A DNA stretch of 33,431 nucleotides from assembly GCA_024228555.1 (NCBI GenBank), contig JAAETI010000248.1:1-33431 (forward strand), given 5' to 3'. The notes beneath the pieces were generated by a model. The model was given only the letters and a program-made list of their open reading frames with translations. It was not told the origin of the DNA and made no database searches. The DNA comes from a bacterium (lineage in GTDB: Bacteria > Actinomycetota > Acidimicrobiia > Spongiisociales > UBA5794). Both the position numbers and the translations under genes were made by a program. Below are positions 14,378 through 23,023 of this stretch, in pieces (position 1 is the first letter of the stretch; each line of letters opens with the position of its first letter).

Positions 14378-15349
14378 ATGATTGAGTCAATCCAGCTCGG
14401 CAATACGGGGCGCGAGGTGACTCGCATCGGGCTAGGCATGGCAGCTCTCGGACGCCCGGGATACATCAACCTCGGCCACAAGTCGGACCTCACCGGCCGA
14501 ACGGAGGTGCGCGCCTTGGAAGAACACGCACACGGGGTTCTCACCGCGGCCTACGACCTCGGGATCCGCTACTTCGACACCGCTCGTTCTTACGGTGGTG
14601 GTGAAGGCTTCCTCGGACGGTGGCTGTTTGCCCAGCGTGTCACCGATCCAGCCGTGACCGTGTCGTCGAAGTGGGGCTACCGATATGTGGCCGACTGGCG
14701 CGTTGATGCGGAGCTCCACGAGGTCAAAGAGCACAGCCTCGACGTCCTCGACACCCAGTACGCCGAAAGCCGCTCTCGGTTGGGACGTCACGTCGACATC
14801 TACCAGATCCACTCCGCAACGCTGGAGTCGGGCGTGCTGGATGACAACGCCATCCTCGATCGCCTTGCGGCTATTCGCAGCGAGGGGGTCACGATTGGCT
14901 TGAGCACCAGCGGTCCCAACCAGGCGAGGACCATCGACAAGGCCATGCAGATCGAGCGCGACGGGGATCAACTCTTCGGGACGGTGCAGGCGACGTGGAA
15001 TCTCCTCGAGACGTCTGCGGGAGCTGCCCTGGCCGCAGCGCGCGAAGCCGGCATGGGCGTGATCATCAAGGAGTCGGTCGCCAATGGTCGCCTCACCGAG
15101 CGCGACATGCGGACGACCAAACCGATTCGCGAGGCGTTTCCCGACCACAGCCCCGACACGATTGCCCTGGCCGCCATCCTGGCCCAACCGTGGGTCAATA
15201 CGATCGTCAGTGGTGCCGCAACAGCCCAGCAGCTTGCATCGAACGTCGCAGCTCTCGAAGTCGATCCGGCGCTCGTGCGGGACCTGCCCGACATGGCCGA
15301 ATCAGCTGATGACTACTGGCGTACGCGGGCGGCATTGAAATGGACATGA
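14378..15349 (+). CDS. Aldo/keto reductase
   Basis: A 323-residue AKR-superfamily TIM-barrel oxidoreductase, normal length. The catalytic tetrad is visible: Asp67 and Tyr72 in YFDTARSYGGGE, Lys98 in VSSKWGY and His145 in IHSATLES. The start GNTGREVTRIGLGMAAL is typical of the YajO/YdhF-type group, and the C-terminal NTIVSGAATAQQLASNVAAL lies where NADP(H) binds in the family. It should reduce a carbonyl with NADPH; the substrate is unknown. Its stop overlaps the start of the next gene (ATGGACATGA at 15340-15349), so the two are translationally coupled. It diverges from the asparagine-synthase-like gene over about 120 bases. Confidence 0.92.
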   Translation: MIESIQLGNTGREVTRIGLGMAALGRPGYINLGHKSDLTGRTEVRALEEHAHGVLTAAYDLGIRYFDTARSYGGGEGFLGRWLFAQRVTDPAVTVSSKWGYRYVADWRVDAELHEVKEHSLDVLDTQYAESRSRLGRHVDIYQIHSATLESGVLDDNAILDRLAAIRSEGVTIGLSTSGPNQARTIDKAMQIERDGDQLFGTVQATWNLLETSAGAALAAAREAGMGVIIKESVANGRLTERDMRTTKPIREAFPDHSPDTIALAAILAQPWVNTIVSGAATAQQLASNVAALEVDPALVRDLPDMAESADDYWRTRAALKWT

Positions 15350-16170
15350 CGCTCCACGAAAAAGGTGCGGCGTTCGGCGAGATGCACCACAGGGAGACCA
15401 TCCTTGTCCTGCCCAACCCGTGGGATATCGGTACATCCCGGTTGCTCGAGCATCTCGGCTTTGAGGCCCTGGCAACCACCAGTGCAGGCTTCGCCCATTC
15501 GCTCGGTCAACCGGACGGAGGGATCGATCGCACGCACGCCCTCAGCCATGCGGCCGAGATCGCAGCGTGCACGTCTTTGCCGGTCTCCGCCGACCTGGAG
15601 AACTGCTTTGCCGACAATCCGGCGGGTGTGGCGGCGACGGTGGCCGCAGCAACCGAAACCGGCATTGTGGGTTGCTCAATAGAAGACGCAACCGGAAACC
15701 CCGATGACCCAATCTACGAGTTCGAGCTGGCGGTGGCGCGAGTGGAGGCCGCGGTGGAGTCTGCCCGCAACGCCGGATTTCCGTTCACACTGACTGCGCG
15801 GGCCGAGGGGTTCTTGCATGGCCGCCCTGACCTCGAGGATGCTGTGCGCCGACTCCAGGCGTTTGCTGAGGCCGGTGCCGATGTTGTGTACGCACCGGGC
15901 ATCTCGGACCCAGCAGCCATATCCACCGTCGTTACATCTGTGCCGGTGCCGGTGAATGTCCTTGCCCTGCCGGGCATGACTGTGTGCGGTCTGGGGGACC
16001 TGGGTGTGGCACGAGTCAGCACCGGGAGCGGCCTGTCCCGCGCTGCGTTCGGCGCCTTCTACGCCGGAGCCGAGGAACTGATCGAGGACGGGACGTTCGG
16101 TTACGGGTGGCCCGACCGCCCCACAGTGCCGCTCAACGAGATCTTCGCCGCAGGCAGGGACCAGCGGTAG
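15340..16170 (+). CDS. Isocitrate lyase/PEP mutase family protein
   Basis: A 276-residue (beta/alpha)8-type protein of the isocitrate lyase/phosphoenolpyruvate mutase superfamily. Family marks are LPNPWDIGTSRLLEHLGFEA, PVSADLENCF (Asp85 and Glu87 as probable Mg ligands) and GIVGCSIEDATG (residues 109-118). The usual glycine after DLE(N/A) is Cys89 here. Members cleave or form C-C or P-C bonds next to an alpha-keto acid, releasing or rearranging pyruvate-like products. The substrate is not deducible. The ATG at 15340 overlaps the reductase by ten bases; the ATG at 15346 would give the common four-base ATGA overlap and is an equal candidate. Its stop abuts the convergent arsR stop in TAGCTA. 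Confidence 0.88.
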   Translation: MDMTLHEKGAAFGEMHHRETILVLPNPWDIGTSRLLEHLGFEALATTSAGFAHSLGQPDGGIDRTHALSHAAEIAACTSLPVSADLENCFADNPAGVAATVAAATETGIVGCSIEDATGNPDDPIYEFELAVARVEAAVESARNAGFPFTLTARAEGFLHGRPDLEDAVRRLQAFAEAGADVVYAPGISDPAAISTVVTSVPVPVNVLALPGMTVCGLGDLGVARVSTGSGLSRAAFGAFYAGAEELIEDGTFGYGWPDRPTVPLNEIFAAGRDQR

Positions 16171-16497
16171 CTACGGGCTGCTCAGGGCGTCGCGCAGCAC
16201 ACCCAACCGATCGGCGTCAATCCGGAACCATGCCCACTTGCCTCGCTTTTCCCGCGACAGCAGACCCGCCTCCGTCAGCAGCGAGAGATGGTGGCTGACT
16301 GTTGGCTGGCTTCGACCGAGCACCGCAGGCAGATCACATGCGCACAACTCCCCATTGGCCGAGTTGGCGATGAGGCTGATAATGCGAAGCCTGATGGGGT
16401 CTGCCAGGAGTTTGAACCCGCCGGCAAGTTCCTCGGCTTCGGCGGCGGCGATCGGTTCGACTAGGACCGGTTCGCAGCAGGTTTGGATGAGTTCCAT
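16171..16497 (-). CDS. arsR: ArsR-family arsenic-responsive repressor
   Basis: A 108-residue winged-helix regulator of the ArsR/SmtB family. The core PIRLRIISLI, then ELCACDL with Cys52 and Cys54, then the recognition helix QPTVSHHLSLLTEAGLL is the classic arrangement in which thiols on or near the DNA-binding helix sense As(III) or Sb(III). A further pair, Cys7-Cys8, at the N-terminus may take part in metalloid binding. It diverges from an arsenite methyltransferase gene, and a perfect 20-bp palindrome lies between them, so repression of both genes until arsenite binds is the expected logic. The family and sensor type are clear; the exact metal set is inferred. Confidence 0.93.
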   Translation of the reverse strand: MELIQTCCEPVLVEPIAAAEAEELAGGFKLLADPIRLRIISLIANSANGELCACDLPAVLGRSQPTVSHHLSLLTEAGLLSREKRGKWAWFRIDADRLGVLRDALSSP

Positions 16498-16513
16498 GAC
16501 CTCACTCTAGTTA

Positions 16514-16533
16514 ATATTGACGTACGTCAATAT
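16514..16533. promoter_or_regulatory. 20-bp perfect palindrome, probable ArsR operator
   Basis: ATATTGACGTACGTCAATAT is identical to its reverse complement. It starts 17 bases upstream of the arsR ATG and ends 47 bases before the arsM ATG. Each half contains TTGACG reading outward, so a bound ArsR dimer would cover a -35-like hexamer for both divergent genes. No convincing -10 match was found on either strand. Confidence 0.8.
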
Positions 16534-16579
16534 AACTGATAACGTCATATCGACAGTCATCAATACGAGGAGCAACCGC

Positions 16580-17347
16580 ATGACAGACACCAAGAATGAG
16601 ATCAGGGACAAGGTCAAGCAGCGCTACGCAGATGCGGCTCGTAGCGCCGAACCGTCGTGCTGCGACACGGACTGCTGCAGCCCCTCGGCATCCGATGCCT
16701 TCAAAACTGCAGACTCAGGCGACTTTGGGACCTGGTTGTACAAGACCGAAGAACTGTCGGAGATTCCCGACGGCGCCGCCCTCGCTTCTCTCGGCTGTGG
16801 CAACCCAACCGCCGTTGCCGACCTGAGCGCAGGCGAGACCGTGCTCGACCTAGGGTCCGGCGCAGGCATTGACGTCCTGCTGTCGGCAAAGCGGGTCGGA
16901 CCGACCGGGTTTGCCTATGGCATCGACATGACCGACGAGATGCTCGAACTCGCTCGGAAGCACCAAGAAGAAGCCGGCGCCGAGAACGTCGAGTTCCGCA
17001 AAGGGACCATCGAGGACATCCCGCTGGATACCTCCACGGTCGATGTCGTCATTTCCAATTGCGTGATCAATCTCTCAGCCGACAAACCAGCGGTCTTCGC
17101 CGAGATGCACCGGGTTCTCAAGCCGGGCGGTCGTCTCGGTATCGCCGATGTTGTTGCCGACAATGACCTGACCGATGCGGAGAAGCTCGAAAGAGGCAGC
17201 TGGGTGGGTTGCATCGCCGGAGCACTAGGTTTCGAGGAGTACGAGTCAGGGCTGGTCAACGCCGGATTCTCGGATGTGTCGATCGAATCGACCCACGTCG
17301 TTGCCGAAGGCATGCATTCCGCCATCATCAAAGCCACAAGGGCCTAG
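16580..17347 (+). CDS. arsM: Arsenite S-adenosylmethionine methyltransferase
   Basis: The start is the ATG at 16580, preceded by GAGGAGC; an open frame reaching back to 16517 would run through the operator and is rejected. The 255-residue enzyme has a SAM-binding Rossmann domain ([16 protein letters not shown] at 88-103, [10 protein letters not shown]) and the three conserved ArsM cysteines: Cys73 in LGCGNP, Cys161 in ISNCVINL and Cys211 in VGCIAGALG. Two N-terminal pairs, Cys27-28 and Cys32-33, are additional likely As(III) ligands. It methylates trivalent arsenic to methylated, partly volatile species. The divergent arsR and shared operator indicate arsenite induction. Confidence 0.95.
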
Positions 17348-17381
17348 AAACCCCCCCGTTCCTGCGTAGCCCGAACGTTCC
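17347..17381 (+). repeat. Copy A of a short 3'-end repeat
   Basis: The sequence GAAA, seven C, then GTTCCTGCGTAG (17347-17369) and GAACGTTCC (17373-17381) begins at the last base of the arsM stop. It matches a second copy after the GbsR-type gene at 21177, where GTTCTTGCGTAG and GAACGTTCC recur. In this copy the two parts are only a few bases apart. Confidence 0.5.
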
Positions 17382-17385
17382 GAAC

Positions 17386-17412
17386 GTGGGTGCCCGCGCC
17401 TCGGGCACCCAC
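17386..17412. terminator. Strong hairpin between arsM and the ABC permease gene
   Basis: GTGGGTGCCCG (17386-17396) and CGGGCACCCAC (17402-17412) form a perfect 11-pair GC-rich stem with a five-base loop. It lies between the convergent arsM and ABC permease genes and could terminate both. No T-tract follows. Confidence 0.7.
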
Positions 17413-17422
17413 GAATAGTCGA

Positions 17423-19855
17423 CTACTCCATTACCCGGAGCGTGCCGGGAAGGTCCATGCGGCGCATGCGCCGGACCGTGAACAGAGGAGCAATCGCAAC
17501 CGCCAGAATCCCGAGGACGACCAACGTGACGAGCGTTGCGGGCGACAGCTCAACCGTTAGGCCGATGTTCGGCATCGTCTCCTTAGCGGTGACATTGACG
17601 ACCCACCACACCATCCAGAGACCGCCGCCAAACCCGATCGCGGTTGCCGCGATCCCGATAATGGTGTTCTCGACAACCGCCATTCGCAACGCCTTCCTCA
17701 CGCGCACGCCATAGGCAAACATGGTCGCGTGCTCGCGCTGCCGCTCTTCGAAACTGATCGACGCCGAATTGAAAGCCATCAGGACGGCCAGCAGCAACAC
17801 GAAGAACGCAACCCCTTGCAGGATCCCCACAAACTGCGCCATTAGGTCATCGAGTTCGTCGGCCGCGGCCGACGCCTTCTGCGCCGAACTCACCGCATCA
17901 AGCTCAAACAATTCTCGTTGCACATCACCGGGAGTGAAGCCCGGGGCTGGGTTCGCATACATGACGTTGGCAAGACCGACCGCGTTTACTGACTCAAGAG
18001 CACTCACATCCATGTAGGCCGCAAATCGCAGCGGATTGTCGTGCAGGCCAGCGACGACGATGTCGGACTCGACGAACCCAAAGGTTGTCGGCCCGGTGCG
18101 AACCGGGTGCGTCACAGACACGGATTGGCCGACCACTACACCGAGGTCTTCGGCTGCGGCCTCCGCCAGAATCAGACCGTCTCCCTGCATCTTGTCACCG
18201 CTGATTGCCGGATGCCAGAGGTCATTGTCGAGATCGAGGATCTCAATCAAGAGATCGACATCCTCCACCCCCGAGGCCTTGGCCCCAATCTGCAGGATCG
18301 GGATGGTTTCCCCGACACTGGTGGCGTCGCCGATAGCGACAACCCCAGGATCGTCAGTCGGCAGCACACCCTCGAGGGTCACGACAAGCCGGTTCGGCGA
18401 GTCACCCTTGATAGCGTTGCCACCACGATCGATCGCACCGACAAACGAGTCGATTGAGCCAAGGAACCCGACGAGAACCGCAATCACCGCGGCAATCCCG
18501 AGCGTTGTCAGCACCGCCCGCCGCGGCGCCCGCAACAGATTGCGGAACGGCAACTGTGCAAACGTATCGCCGGGGAGCGGGATCCGCTTGAGCAGCGGTG
18601 CCAATCCGCCACCGCGGGAAGCCAGGTGCCCGGTCCGAATAGCCTCGATCGGCTTGACCCTGACCGCACGCCAGACCGGGTAGGCGGCGGCGAAGAACGG
18701 GATCACAAAGCCAATGACGGCCACCCAAGCGAAAAGACTCCACTGGAAATGGGTGATCCACACCGGGAGCGGCAAGAAGCTGACCAGGACCGACCTCATG
18801 AGCTGACCGAGTAGCACACCAACCAACACCCCAAATACGACTCCGAGGAAGGCGATCTGAGCACCGACGAGCAGCGGACGCAGCGCAATCTTGCGTGGCG
18901 AGATGCCAAGCGCCATCGAGATACCGATCTCTCTGCGCTGAGCTTCGGACAGACGTGTTATCAGGTTGAATGCCCCCATAACCGCACCGGCAAATATCAA
19001 GAAGGCGAAGATGCTGAACATCTCCTGGTCGTTCTCAACATCCTCAAACAGAATCCGATAGGAGGGATCCTCCTCCTTCATCATCACCTCGACGCCGACA
19101 CCAAGGTCGCCGATGGCTGATTCGATTTCGGCCGCCACTACGTCGCGGTCGCCATCGTCGGCAACAGTGACGATGAGATCGTTTACCGCACCTTCCATAC
19201 CGGTGAGACGCTGTGCGGTCTCCAGGGAGGTGAATACACCCGCATAGGTGCCCTGTGCGAACGTCGACGTGTTCTCAGGGACGACCATGAAGTACTCAGG
19301 GGTGAGGGCGCCGCCGGCGTAGGCAACATCCTCGCCACCGCTGACGGTTACGGACCCAGAAGGCGGCAGATCATTGTGGAAGATGAAGCCATAGTCGAGC
19401 AGAACCACCGGCTCCCCCGCATCGCTCGGCGCTAGCGCCGAACCTGTCTCAACGTGCCATCCGTTGATGGCGGGCCCGCCATCGGCAATATCGACGCCAA
19501 TCATTGATCCCGGGACGAGAAGCGTGTCGGCACCCGATGAAGCGTCGACCTGAGTAGGGCGGACGAGCCGCTCCTGCACTCCATCCAATGAGTCGGCATG
19601 GGCAATTCCCAAGGCCGCGGTCGCCAGTTCACCCTTGTCGACCGAGCTTTCGCCGGCGAGCTCGAACCGAACATCGAACATGTTCAGCAGCTCGACGCTG
19701 GCAACATTCGAGTCGCGACGCCAGTTGGCTGTACTAGTGAGACCGGCGTATGCACCGGTACCGATGCCGATGACGAGGGCAATCGCGATCACCTTCACCC
19801 AATACTTGCGTAGATCTCTCCACGACCAACGAAGAAGAAGAAACCAATCCTTCAT
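17423..19855 (-). CDS. FtsX-type ABC transporter permease (MacB/LolC-like)
   Basis: The start is taken at the ATG at 19855 (MKDWFLLLRWSWRDLRK), four bases after the ATPase gene stop; the frame continues upstream only as overlap. The roughly 810-residue product has two FtsX units. The first has an N-terminal helix (VIAIALVIGIGTGAYAG), a large extracytoplasmic domain of about 230 residues and three helices; a second FtsX block with its own extracytoplasmic domain follows. Segments such as RLSEAQRREIGISMALG and RQREHATMFAYGVR are the coupling regions seen in this family. With its ATPase partner it probably works as a mechanotransmission-type exporter of lipids, lipoproteins or peptides, not a classical importer. 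Confidence 0.92.
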   Translation of the reverse strand: MKDWFLLLRWSWRDLRKYWVKVIAIALVIGIGTGAYAGLTSTANWRRDSNVASVELLNMFDVRFELAGESSVDKGELATAALGIAHADSLDGVQERLVRPTQVDASSGADTLLVPGSMIGVDIADGGPAINGWHVETGSALAPSDAGEPVVLLDYGFIFHNDLPPSGSVTVSGGEDVAYAGGALTPEYFMVVPENTSTFAQGTYAGVFTSLETAQRLTGMEGAVNDLIVTVADDGDRDVVAAEIESAIGDLGVGVEVMMKEEDPSYRILFEDVENDQEMFSIFAFLIFAGAVMGAFNLITRLSEAQRREIGISMALGISPRKIALRPLLVGAQIAFLGVVFGVLVGVLLGQLMRSVLVSFLPLPVWITHFQWSLFAWVAVIGFVIPFFAAAYPVWRAVRVKPIEAIRTGHLASRGGGLAPLLKRIPLPGDTFAQLPFRNLLRAPRRAVLTTLGIAAVIAVLVGFLGSIDSFVGAIDRGGNAIKGDSPNRLVVTLEGVLPTDDPGVVAIGDATSVGETIPILQIGAKASGVEDVDLLIEILDLDNDLWHPAISGDKMQGDGLILAEAAAEDLGVVVGQSVSVTHPVRTGPTTFGFVESDIVVAGLHDNPLRFAAYMDVSALESVNAVGLANVMYANPAPGFTPGDVQRELFELDAVSSAQKASAAADELDDLMAQFVGILQGVAFFVLLLAVLMAFNSASISFEERQREHATMFAYGVRVRKALRMAVVENTIIGIAATAIGFGGGLWMVWWVVNVTAKETMPNIGLTVELSPATLVTLVVLGILAVAIAPLFTVRRMRRMDLPGTLRVME

Positions 19856-22035: not shown

Positions 22036-23023
22036 TCTTCCGCTTGATTTCGACCACCTCGGCCGGATCAACTTCGACAACCTTGCCTTTGAACACCTTG
22101 CGCGAACCGGTGCCGGAAGCGTTCTGAAAGACAACGGCGTAGTCGAGCATGAGCCACTGCGGCGCTTGAGCGGTGGACGTCACGGAGAATTCGACATGGA
22201 CACTGGTGCCAACAGCAGCGATCTCAGGGGTCATCTGCAGGCCAGAGACTCGAACCTGAGGCTGATCGGAGAACCCAAGCAACGCCATCGCGCTTCGGTC
22301 TCCTGCTTTGAGAAGTGTTCGCAACGCGTGCTTTGTCAGAGCCGTAACCTCGTCTGATCCATCGTCCCATCGAGCCAGCGTTTCCACCGCAACCGCAGGA
22401 TGGTCCTTGCTGATGTCATTCAGGTTGTTGGCCACACTGCGCCTGACTACCTCCGACGGATCCCGGTACAGCACCTCCAGTACCGGCAGAATCGGACCCG
22501 GATCGGTCTTCAATGCGGGAATGCCCATCCCCCACGGCAACCGAGGACGGAACCCCTCGCTGGCCAGCCGACGCACGTTGGCGTCATCGCTGTTCGCCCA
22601 GACCAGCATCTGATCGGTCATCCGATCCGGATAGCGTTTTATGAATGGCCGCACCGCAAACTCAGCCGAGGCCAGCTTGGTGAACTGCTCTAGCGCTGGG
22701 ATCGACAGGTCTGGGTCGTCAACGCCATACTCCTCGACAAAGTCGTTGAAGCACCAGACGGTCATTGTTCCTGACTGAACGAGTTCTCCGGCCTGCCTCA
22801 TCACCGCAAGCGCCTCCGCGTAGTCGTCGGGGAGAACTGACCGCAACGTCATCGCGATATGCCGGACCCGTTGCTTGAGAGCGCGATCTTCCCAATCGTC
22901 GTCGAAGATGCAGCCCACCACCTCCTCGACATCAAGGCCCGGCCTCACCTCGGCAACAGCCATCACGATTCTTGTCACCGAAGGGCGATCGATGAAGTCC
23001 TTGAGAAGTGGTGGATCAGCCAT
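21926..23023 (-). CDS. AlkC-type DNA alkylation repair glycosylase (HEAT-like repeats)
   Basis: A 365-residue protein with an alpha-helical HEAT-like repeat region to about residue 255 and a C-terminal beta-rich domain from about 257 to 365 that looks immunoglobulin-like. Family marks are SAEFAVRPFIKRYPD, ASEGFRPRLPW and the segment around TDPGPILPVLEVLYRDPSEVVRRSVANNLNDISKDHP (roughly 174-209). The AlkC/AlkD superfamily excises N3- and N7-alkylated bases, and AlkC proteins with an Ig-like C-terminal domain have been described. It overlaps the convergent UDG-type gene by 110 bases, so two base-excision-repair genes face each other. Confidence 0.88.
   Translation of the reverse strand: MADPPLLKDFIDRPSVTRIVMAVAEVRPGLDVEEVVGCIFDDDWEDRALKQRVRHIAMTLRSVLPDDYAEALAVMRQAGELVQSGTMTVWCFNDFVEEYGVDDPDLSIPALEQFTKLASAEFAVRPFIKRYPDRMTDQMLVWANSDDANVRRLASEGFRPRLPWGMGIPALKTDPGPILPVLEVLYRDPSEVVRRSVANNLNDISKDHPAVAVETLARWDDGSDEVTALTKHALRTLLKAGDRSAMALLGFSDQPQVRVSGLQMTPEIAAVGTSVHVEFSVTSTAQAPQWLMLDYAVVFQNASGTGSRKVFKGKVVEVDPAEVVEIKRKISLQQMTTRRILPGPHVVQVQVNGAVLASVGFDVIE

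Follow-up and report, generated by a model that had tools for sequence, protein, structure and literature searches.

How transcription of the divergent genes arsR and arsM is governed from the 82 bp that separate them (16498–16579), and how many repressor-binding sites this takes, is the question raised by this locus of an uncultured actinobacterium. The initial annotation had seen a region built around one palindrome. Our analysis of the window (the whole stretch of 33,431 bp that contains the locus) and of related loci indicates that the gap likely carries two such sites, not one, and that many relatives share this arrangement.

The genes and their surroundings

The minus-strand gene arsR (16171–16497) encodes a 108-aa ArsR/SmtB repressor with an N-terminal Cys7–Cys8 pair and the motif ELC(52)AC(54)D. 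The protein scored 52.7 bits with PF01022 (HTH_5 winged helix, cut-off 22) and 84.4 bits with NF033788 (HTH_metalloreg, cut-off 55), above both curated cut-offs; the Rv2640c-family model NF041413 was not reached (86.7 bits vs a cut-off of 155). Its best PDB match by sequence was 6j0e, ‘Arsenic responsive repressor ArsR’ (E = 2.3e-17), and the top-ranked named relatives (the best 80 of 551) belong to Acidimicrobiia and other Actinomycetota. The hexapeptide ELCACD corresponds to the metal-binding motif of the ArsR/SmtB family, defined as ELCV(C/G)D in an excerpt of PMC5658604, with A rather than V as the fourth residue. Cys7, Cys8, Cys52 and Cys54 are kept in all 22 divergent arsR–arsM loci.

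On the plus strand, arsM (16580–17347) encodes a 255-aa arsenite methyltransferase, which passed the model NF008823 (PRK11873) with 303.6 bits against a cut-off of 263. Cysteines occur at positions 27, 28, 32, 33, 73, 161 and 211, and the predicted function is As(III) methylation. Six further ArsM homologues of about 40–43% identity contain one in-frame TGA (G042:C9, G023:C151, G024:C53, G001:C115, G010:C5 and G001:C162); these are possibly selenoprotein methyltransferases resembling the ArsM-UU families of NCBIfam.

The description of the locus as a minimal arsR–arsM unit, with no arsB, arsC or acr3 nearby, proved accurate for the families searched. In the source genome (5.4 Mb in 1027 contigs), neither ArsB (PF02040) nor the PF03960 type of ArsC gave a match at E ≤ 0.001, while the single acr3 match lies on contig C583 and the single LMWPc match (PF01451), which may be an arsenate reductase or a phosphatase, on C942; hence “not nearby” is correct for these families. 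As to the flanks, an aldo-keto reductase gene adjoins the arsM locus in five of six same-genus relatives (window 14378–16170; L021, L023, L026, L027 and L031), and no counterpart of the PEP-mutase-like gene at 15340–16170 was detected in the loci searched, which have short flanks.

Two operator-like sites in the gap

The gap is poor in G+C (41%, vs 61% across the window). The perfect 20-bp palindrome ATATTGACGTACGTCAATAT reported earlier is indeed present, at 16514–16533, and is the sole copy in the window; we refer to it as O1. No other match with up to three mismatches was found in the window, nor did any appear in 100 dinucleotide shuffles, and mononucleotide shuffling of the 82-bp gap, repeated 200,000 times, yielded a perfect 20-bp palindrome only 16 times.

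For comparison, we searched for ArsM in 50 genomes of the family, and for ArsR in 138 genomes of the order and in a collection of named genomes. Two loci were excluded early, L046 (contig end) and L047 (distant, with an in-frame TGA), and 34 arsM loci were studied. Anchoring on TTGAC was possible in 29 of these, and 27 have TAnnnT 17 or 18 bp on; because the two boxes themselves were used for anchoring, their invariance is partly by construction. Left out as unanchored were L033 and L045 (no site), L041 (cut by a contig end), and L042 and L043, where arsR runs in the same direction as arsM and paired sites lie upstream of arsR. The columns of O1 were counted over 27 loci, after removal of L040 (near-identical to L037) and of L044, whose TTGAC lies outside the palindrome. 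In L113 and L142, no TAnnnT follows the TTGAC of the chosen O1 at 16–18 bp; these two were set aside from the geometry of the second site, leaving 25 loci with a standard promoter.

With a matrix derived from the O1 sites of the other loci (window excluded), O1 scored 31.7. The same matrix disclosed a second site, O2 (ATATCGACAGTCATCAATAC, 16547–16566, score 27.3), located 33 bp downstream of O1 and over the predicted arsM start. These are the two top-scoring sites of the window, the next best reaching 9.9. All 25 loci with a standard promoter have an O2, 29–39 bp downstream of O1; its first base lies anywhere from 3 nt upstream to 7 nt downstream of where the −10 box ends, and no score is below 12.5. 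Of 7500 shuffled segments, 0.05% scored at least 12, the highest value being 13.5; L067 (13.4) and L073 (12.5), the weakest O2 sites, come within this range and are not safe individually. Both O1 and O2, as predicted sites, are palindromic operators overlapping a promoter or start site, as expected for ArsR/SmtB regulators.

A fixed helical phasing of the two sites was rejected, as the offsets are scattered over 29–39 bp; with a spacing that varies over 10 bp, there is no strong case for cooperative looping either. Three loci with an arsM homologue, L033, L045 and L047, showed no operator-like site over the stretch examined. In Cellulomonas chitinilytica (L142:2864–2938) and in an actinobacterial MAG (L113:2920–2984), three sites in the arsR–arsM gap were scored by the matrix, and two of these overlap.

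The initial annotation had proposed a search of the genome for further copies of the palindrome. The site motif occurs five times in the source genome, namely at O1 and O2, at 22290 and 22325 on contig C423, and once on C395 (2013–2032, L196), where a lone operator-like site reads GTATCGACGGTGATCGATAC; a reversed-pattern control gave zero. The operator pair was found in 23 of the 50 family genomes, source included, and again the control gave none. On C423, the pair directly precedes a gene for an ArsP_1-family permease, which is followed by a second arsR (arsR2; C423:22290–23674; L009:5291–6678). The permease belongs to that family by its score with PF03773 (129.7 bits, the only ArsP_1 match in the source genome) and fell below the cut-offs of the SaoE and SO_0444 equivalogs of NCBIfam; its export substrate is possibly a methylarsenical or another metalloid. 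A permease–arsR pair with paired sites also occurs in G017, G032 and G034, and in G035 paired sites stand ahead of a permease cut by the contig end.

Given that the operator pair is common to arsM and to permease–arsR2, methylation and export are probably co-induced. The earlier statement that arsM is the whole local response holds at the locus itself, but there is a paired operator at permease–arsR2 on another contig, and acr3 lies elsewhere. Membership of acr3 in the regulon was rejected for want of a site, the best score over 3717 bp of L020 (C583) being 4.7. Just ahead of a third arsR paralogue (C348:6371–6658, L008) there is a single weak operator-like site, with a score of 16.3.

Operator-like sites are also retained at six arsM loci whose examined flank has no arsR: L024, L025, L026, L028 and L029 have two matrix-scored sites each, and L044 has one scored site and, besides it, another palindrome. 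In five of the six genomes concerned, another arsR has such a site, the exception being G016. Together with the occurrence of the same motif ahead of permease–arsR2 in the source genome, this is consistent with control in trans, with the arsR2 product, and not the adjacent ArsR alone, acting on arsM, and vice versa. We regard such sharing as a serious contender, with a chance that falls a little short of even. The six genomes, however, are listed as 76–94% complete, so that the absent arsR may simply be unassembled; G016 has sites at arsM but none at its other arsR; and ArsR and ArsR2 of the source genome are only 52–57% identical.

A related matter is the ligand. ArsR could respond chiefly to antimonite or to the methylarsenite that ArsM produces, since the effector is not readable from sequence and since arsM adjoins arsR and a sister site lies beside the ArsP_1 permease. 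We consider this unlikely: the closest relative with a solved structure carries the name arsenic-responsive repressor, and the candidate metalloid-binding cysteines are conserved.

Promoters and predicted start sites of the two genes

A sigma-70 consensus scan of 16100–17500 returned no promoter in the gap, the sole promoter-like match being inside arsR on the other strand, which makes the scan uninformative for this region. Transcription starts of both genes were predicted from hexamers alone. For arsM, the −35 box TTGACG (16517–16522, plus strand) is contained in O1 and is followed, after 17 bp, by the −10-like box TAACGT (16540–16545, plus strand), a hexamer also found in L032 and L039; the predicted start is near 16552. 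TTGAC is followed by TAnnnT at 17 or 18 bp in 27/29 anchored loci, and among the 25 standard-promoter loci the spacing is 17 in 20 cases and 18 in 5. A Shine-Dalgarno sequence, GAGGAG (16567–16572, plus strand), stands 7 nt before the ATG.

The arsR side is organized otherwise. A −10-like box, TAGAGT (16504–16509, minus strand), lies 6 nt before the ATG, giving a predicted leaderless start at 16497. TAnnnT was found 6–7 nt before the arsR start in 17 of 22 non-redundant divergent-arsR loci, as compared with a mean of 0.8 and a maximum of 5 in 2000 mononucleotide shuffles. The call depends on the choice of start codon, for which we took the in-frame start nearest the aligned first residue; with starts so chosen, TAnnnT is at a gap of 8 in L031, and none is at 6–8 in L034, L066, L113 and L142. 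Another in-frame start would fit L034, L066 and L142 to the pattern, which is suggestive only. Shine-Dalgarno-like sequences occur at 25/28 arsM starts vs 2/22 arsR starts, and a leaderless-type TAnnnT box, looked for as a control, was seen at 0/28 arsM starts.

The position of TAnnnT indicates that arsR is probably leaderless, with a −10 box predicted to set the start at the start codon and no Shine-Dalgarno sequence, and that arsM probably has a leader. According to the available text of PMC3160421, leaderless genes, which are common in Actinobacteria, are recognizable by a TANNNT some 12 bp upstream. The arsR of the window is alike, the first T of its box being 12 nt before the ATG, although the class described there is a general one of the genome, not specific to ArsR in that text.

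Relative to the predicted starts, O1 occupies −36 to −17 on the arsR side and about −38 to −19 on the arsM side. Each promoter thus has its −35 zone under O1, and one dimer could repress both. The distance from the arsR start (rule-chosen) to O1 is 13–19 bp in 14/22 loci and outside this range in 8, implying that sharing of O1 by the two promoters is not universal.

The idea that one ArsR dimer serves both directions therefore survives as far as O1 covers both predicted −35 zones, but not through two −35 boxes. The palindrome does contain TTGACG reading outward on both strands, at 16517–16522 (plus) and 16530–16525 (minus), as had been noted. The five O1 positions A3, T14, C15, A17 and T18 are invariant in 27/27 non-redundant loci; position 16, the base that completes the arsR-facing TTGAC, is A in the window alone, G in 19 loci and T in 7, with several relatives reading TCGACG where the window has TTGACG. 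Consequently, within this set, the perfect symmetry of O1 is peculiar to this genome. The arsR-facing TTGAC (hexamer at 16525–16530, minus strand) is found in 1/27 aligned promoters, the window's own, and lies 15 nt from the −10-like box that predicts a leaderless arsR. On these grounds we rejected the notion of two functional −35 boxes. The single-palindrome model, in which one dimer blocks two such boxes, can point to the two hexamers and to the placement of O1, but it is improbable in view of this lack of conservation and of the regular presence of O2.

That O2 might act as RNA, forming a hairpin or attenuator in the arsM leader, agrees with its near-palindromic sequence and its position mostly downstream of the predicted start, but is very improbable, because O2 fits the O1 matrix and such sites also precede permease and arsR genes.

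Proposed switch and relation to known systems

Taken as a whole, the data are best explained, in our judgment with good probability, by an ArsR dimer that is released by arsenite from two operators. The dimer would bind O1, over the −35 zones of both promoters, and O2, which would cover arsM alone, from about −5 to +15. In the absence of arsenic, both sites would bar RNA polymerase from arsM, and O1 would bar it from arsR, so that arsM would be tightly repressed and arsR autorepressed more softly. Binding of arsenite at Cys7/Cys8 together with Cys52/Cys54 would free the repressor and allow transcription of both genes, arsR presumably as a leaderless mRNA and arsM as an mRNA with a leader and a Shine-Dalgarno sequence. 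Placed under the same operator pair, arsM and the ArsP_1 permease with the second arsR would be induced jointly.

The operator of the ArsR of C. glutamicum has reportedly been the subject of earlier work. That ArsR operators come singly or in pairs, that arsR and arsM form pairs and that leaderless genes exist in Actinobacteria is already known. For instance, in the ars promoter of Synechocystis, ArsR is reported to footprint a pair of 17-bp repeats (Lopez-Maury et al. 2003, cited in PMC4585019), so that, as here, one promoter has two repeated sites; as far as the excerpts of PMC4585019 go, however, a distant arsR controls the ars operon there, arsM is without such repeats, and the consensus as given there is ATCAA(N)6TTGAT, vs ATTGA(N)6TCAAT in O1. 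Inverted-repeat operators of the 12-2-12 type, one or two per promoter, are established for SmtB/ArsR proteins (PMC8790569, in part). O1 fits this type, 10 of the 12 positions in its arms being paired, and the sites likewise lie near or over the promoter and start; in that frame O2 pairs only 7 of 12 arm positions, and the regulators named in that portion of the source respond to other metals.

In Thermus thermophilus, TtSmtB binds the TtarsM promoter over the putative −35 and −10 boxes (PMC8649762 and PMC5658604, extracts). The system resembles the present one in having a repressor on the arsM promoter and dispersed genes with a common operator; it differs in that the extracts describe one inverted repeat and a TtArsM without the canonical arsenite site. 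Two-gene arsR–arsM units have been reported (PMC6205960 and PMC4585019, partial texts). Among them, the ars3 cluster of Rhodopseudomonas palustris (arsRM type) is similar in being a two-gene, arsenite-induced arsR–arsM unit with acr3 in another operon, but it forms one operon (arsR4, arsM), while the genes are divergent here (PMC4585019, same excerpts). A passage of PMC6514093 describes arsP and arsM as rare in general among Actinobacteria, yet reports arsM in several actinobacterial clusters.

In the portions of the open-licence literature that we could access, we found no description of a divergent arsR–arsM region with two operators, or of a leaderless arsR. Nor did we find in them the leaderless/leadered asymmetry, which holds in most of the set, or the connection to an ArsP_1 permease. 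We tentatively propose, as a possibility that we would not yet favor over its negation, that the region is a conserved asymmetric divergent switch, in which a leaderless arsR is softly and a leadered arsM doubly repressed, wired to the ArsP_1 permease and arsR2 such that methylation and export are co-induced.

Comparing relatives corrected what had been read from a single sequence, in that only one of the two mirror-image −35 boxes turned out to be conserved and a second operator had been overlooked. For the family, a predicted leaderless repressor gene next to a leadered enzyme gene provides a testable rule, and the common operator suggests a methylate-and-export regulon.
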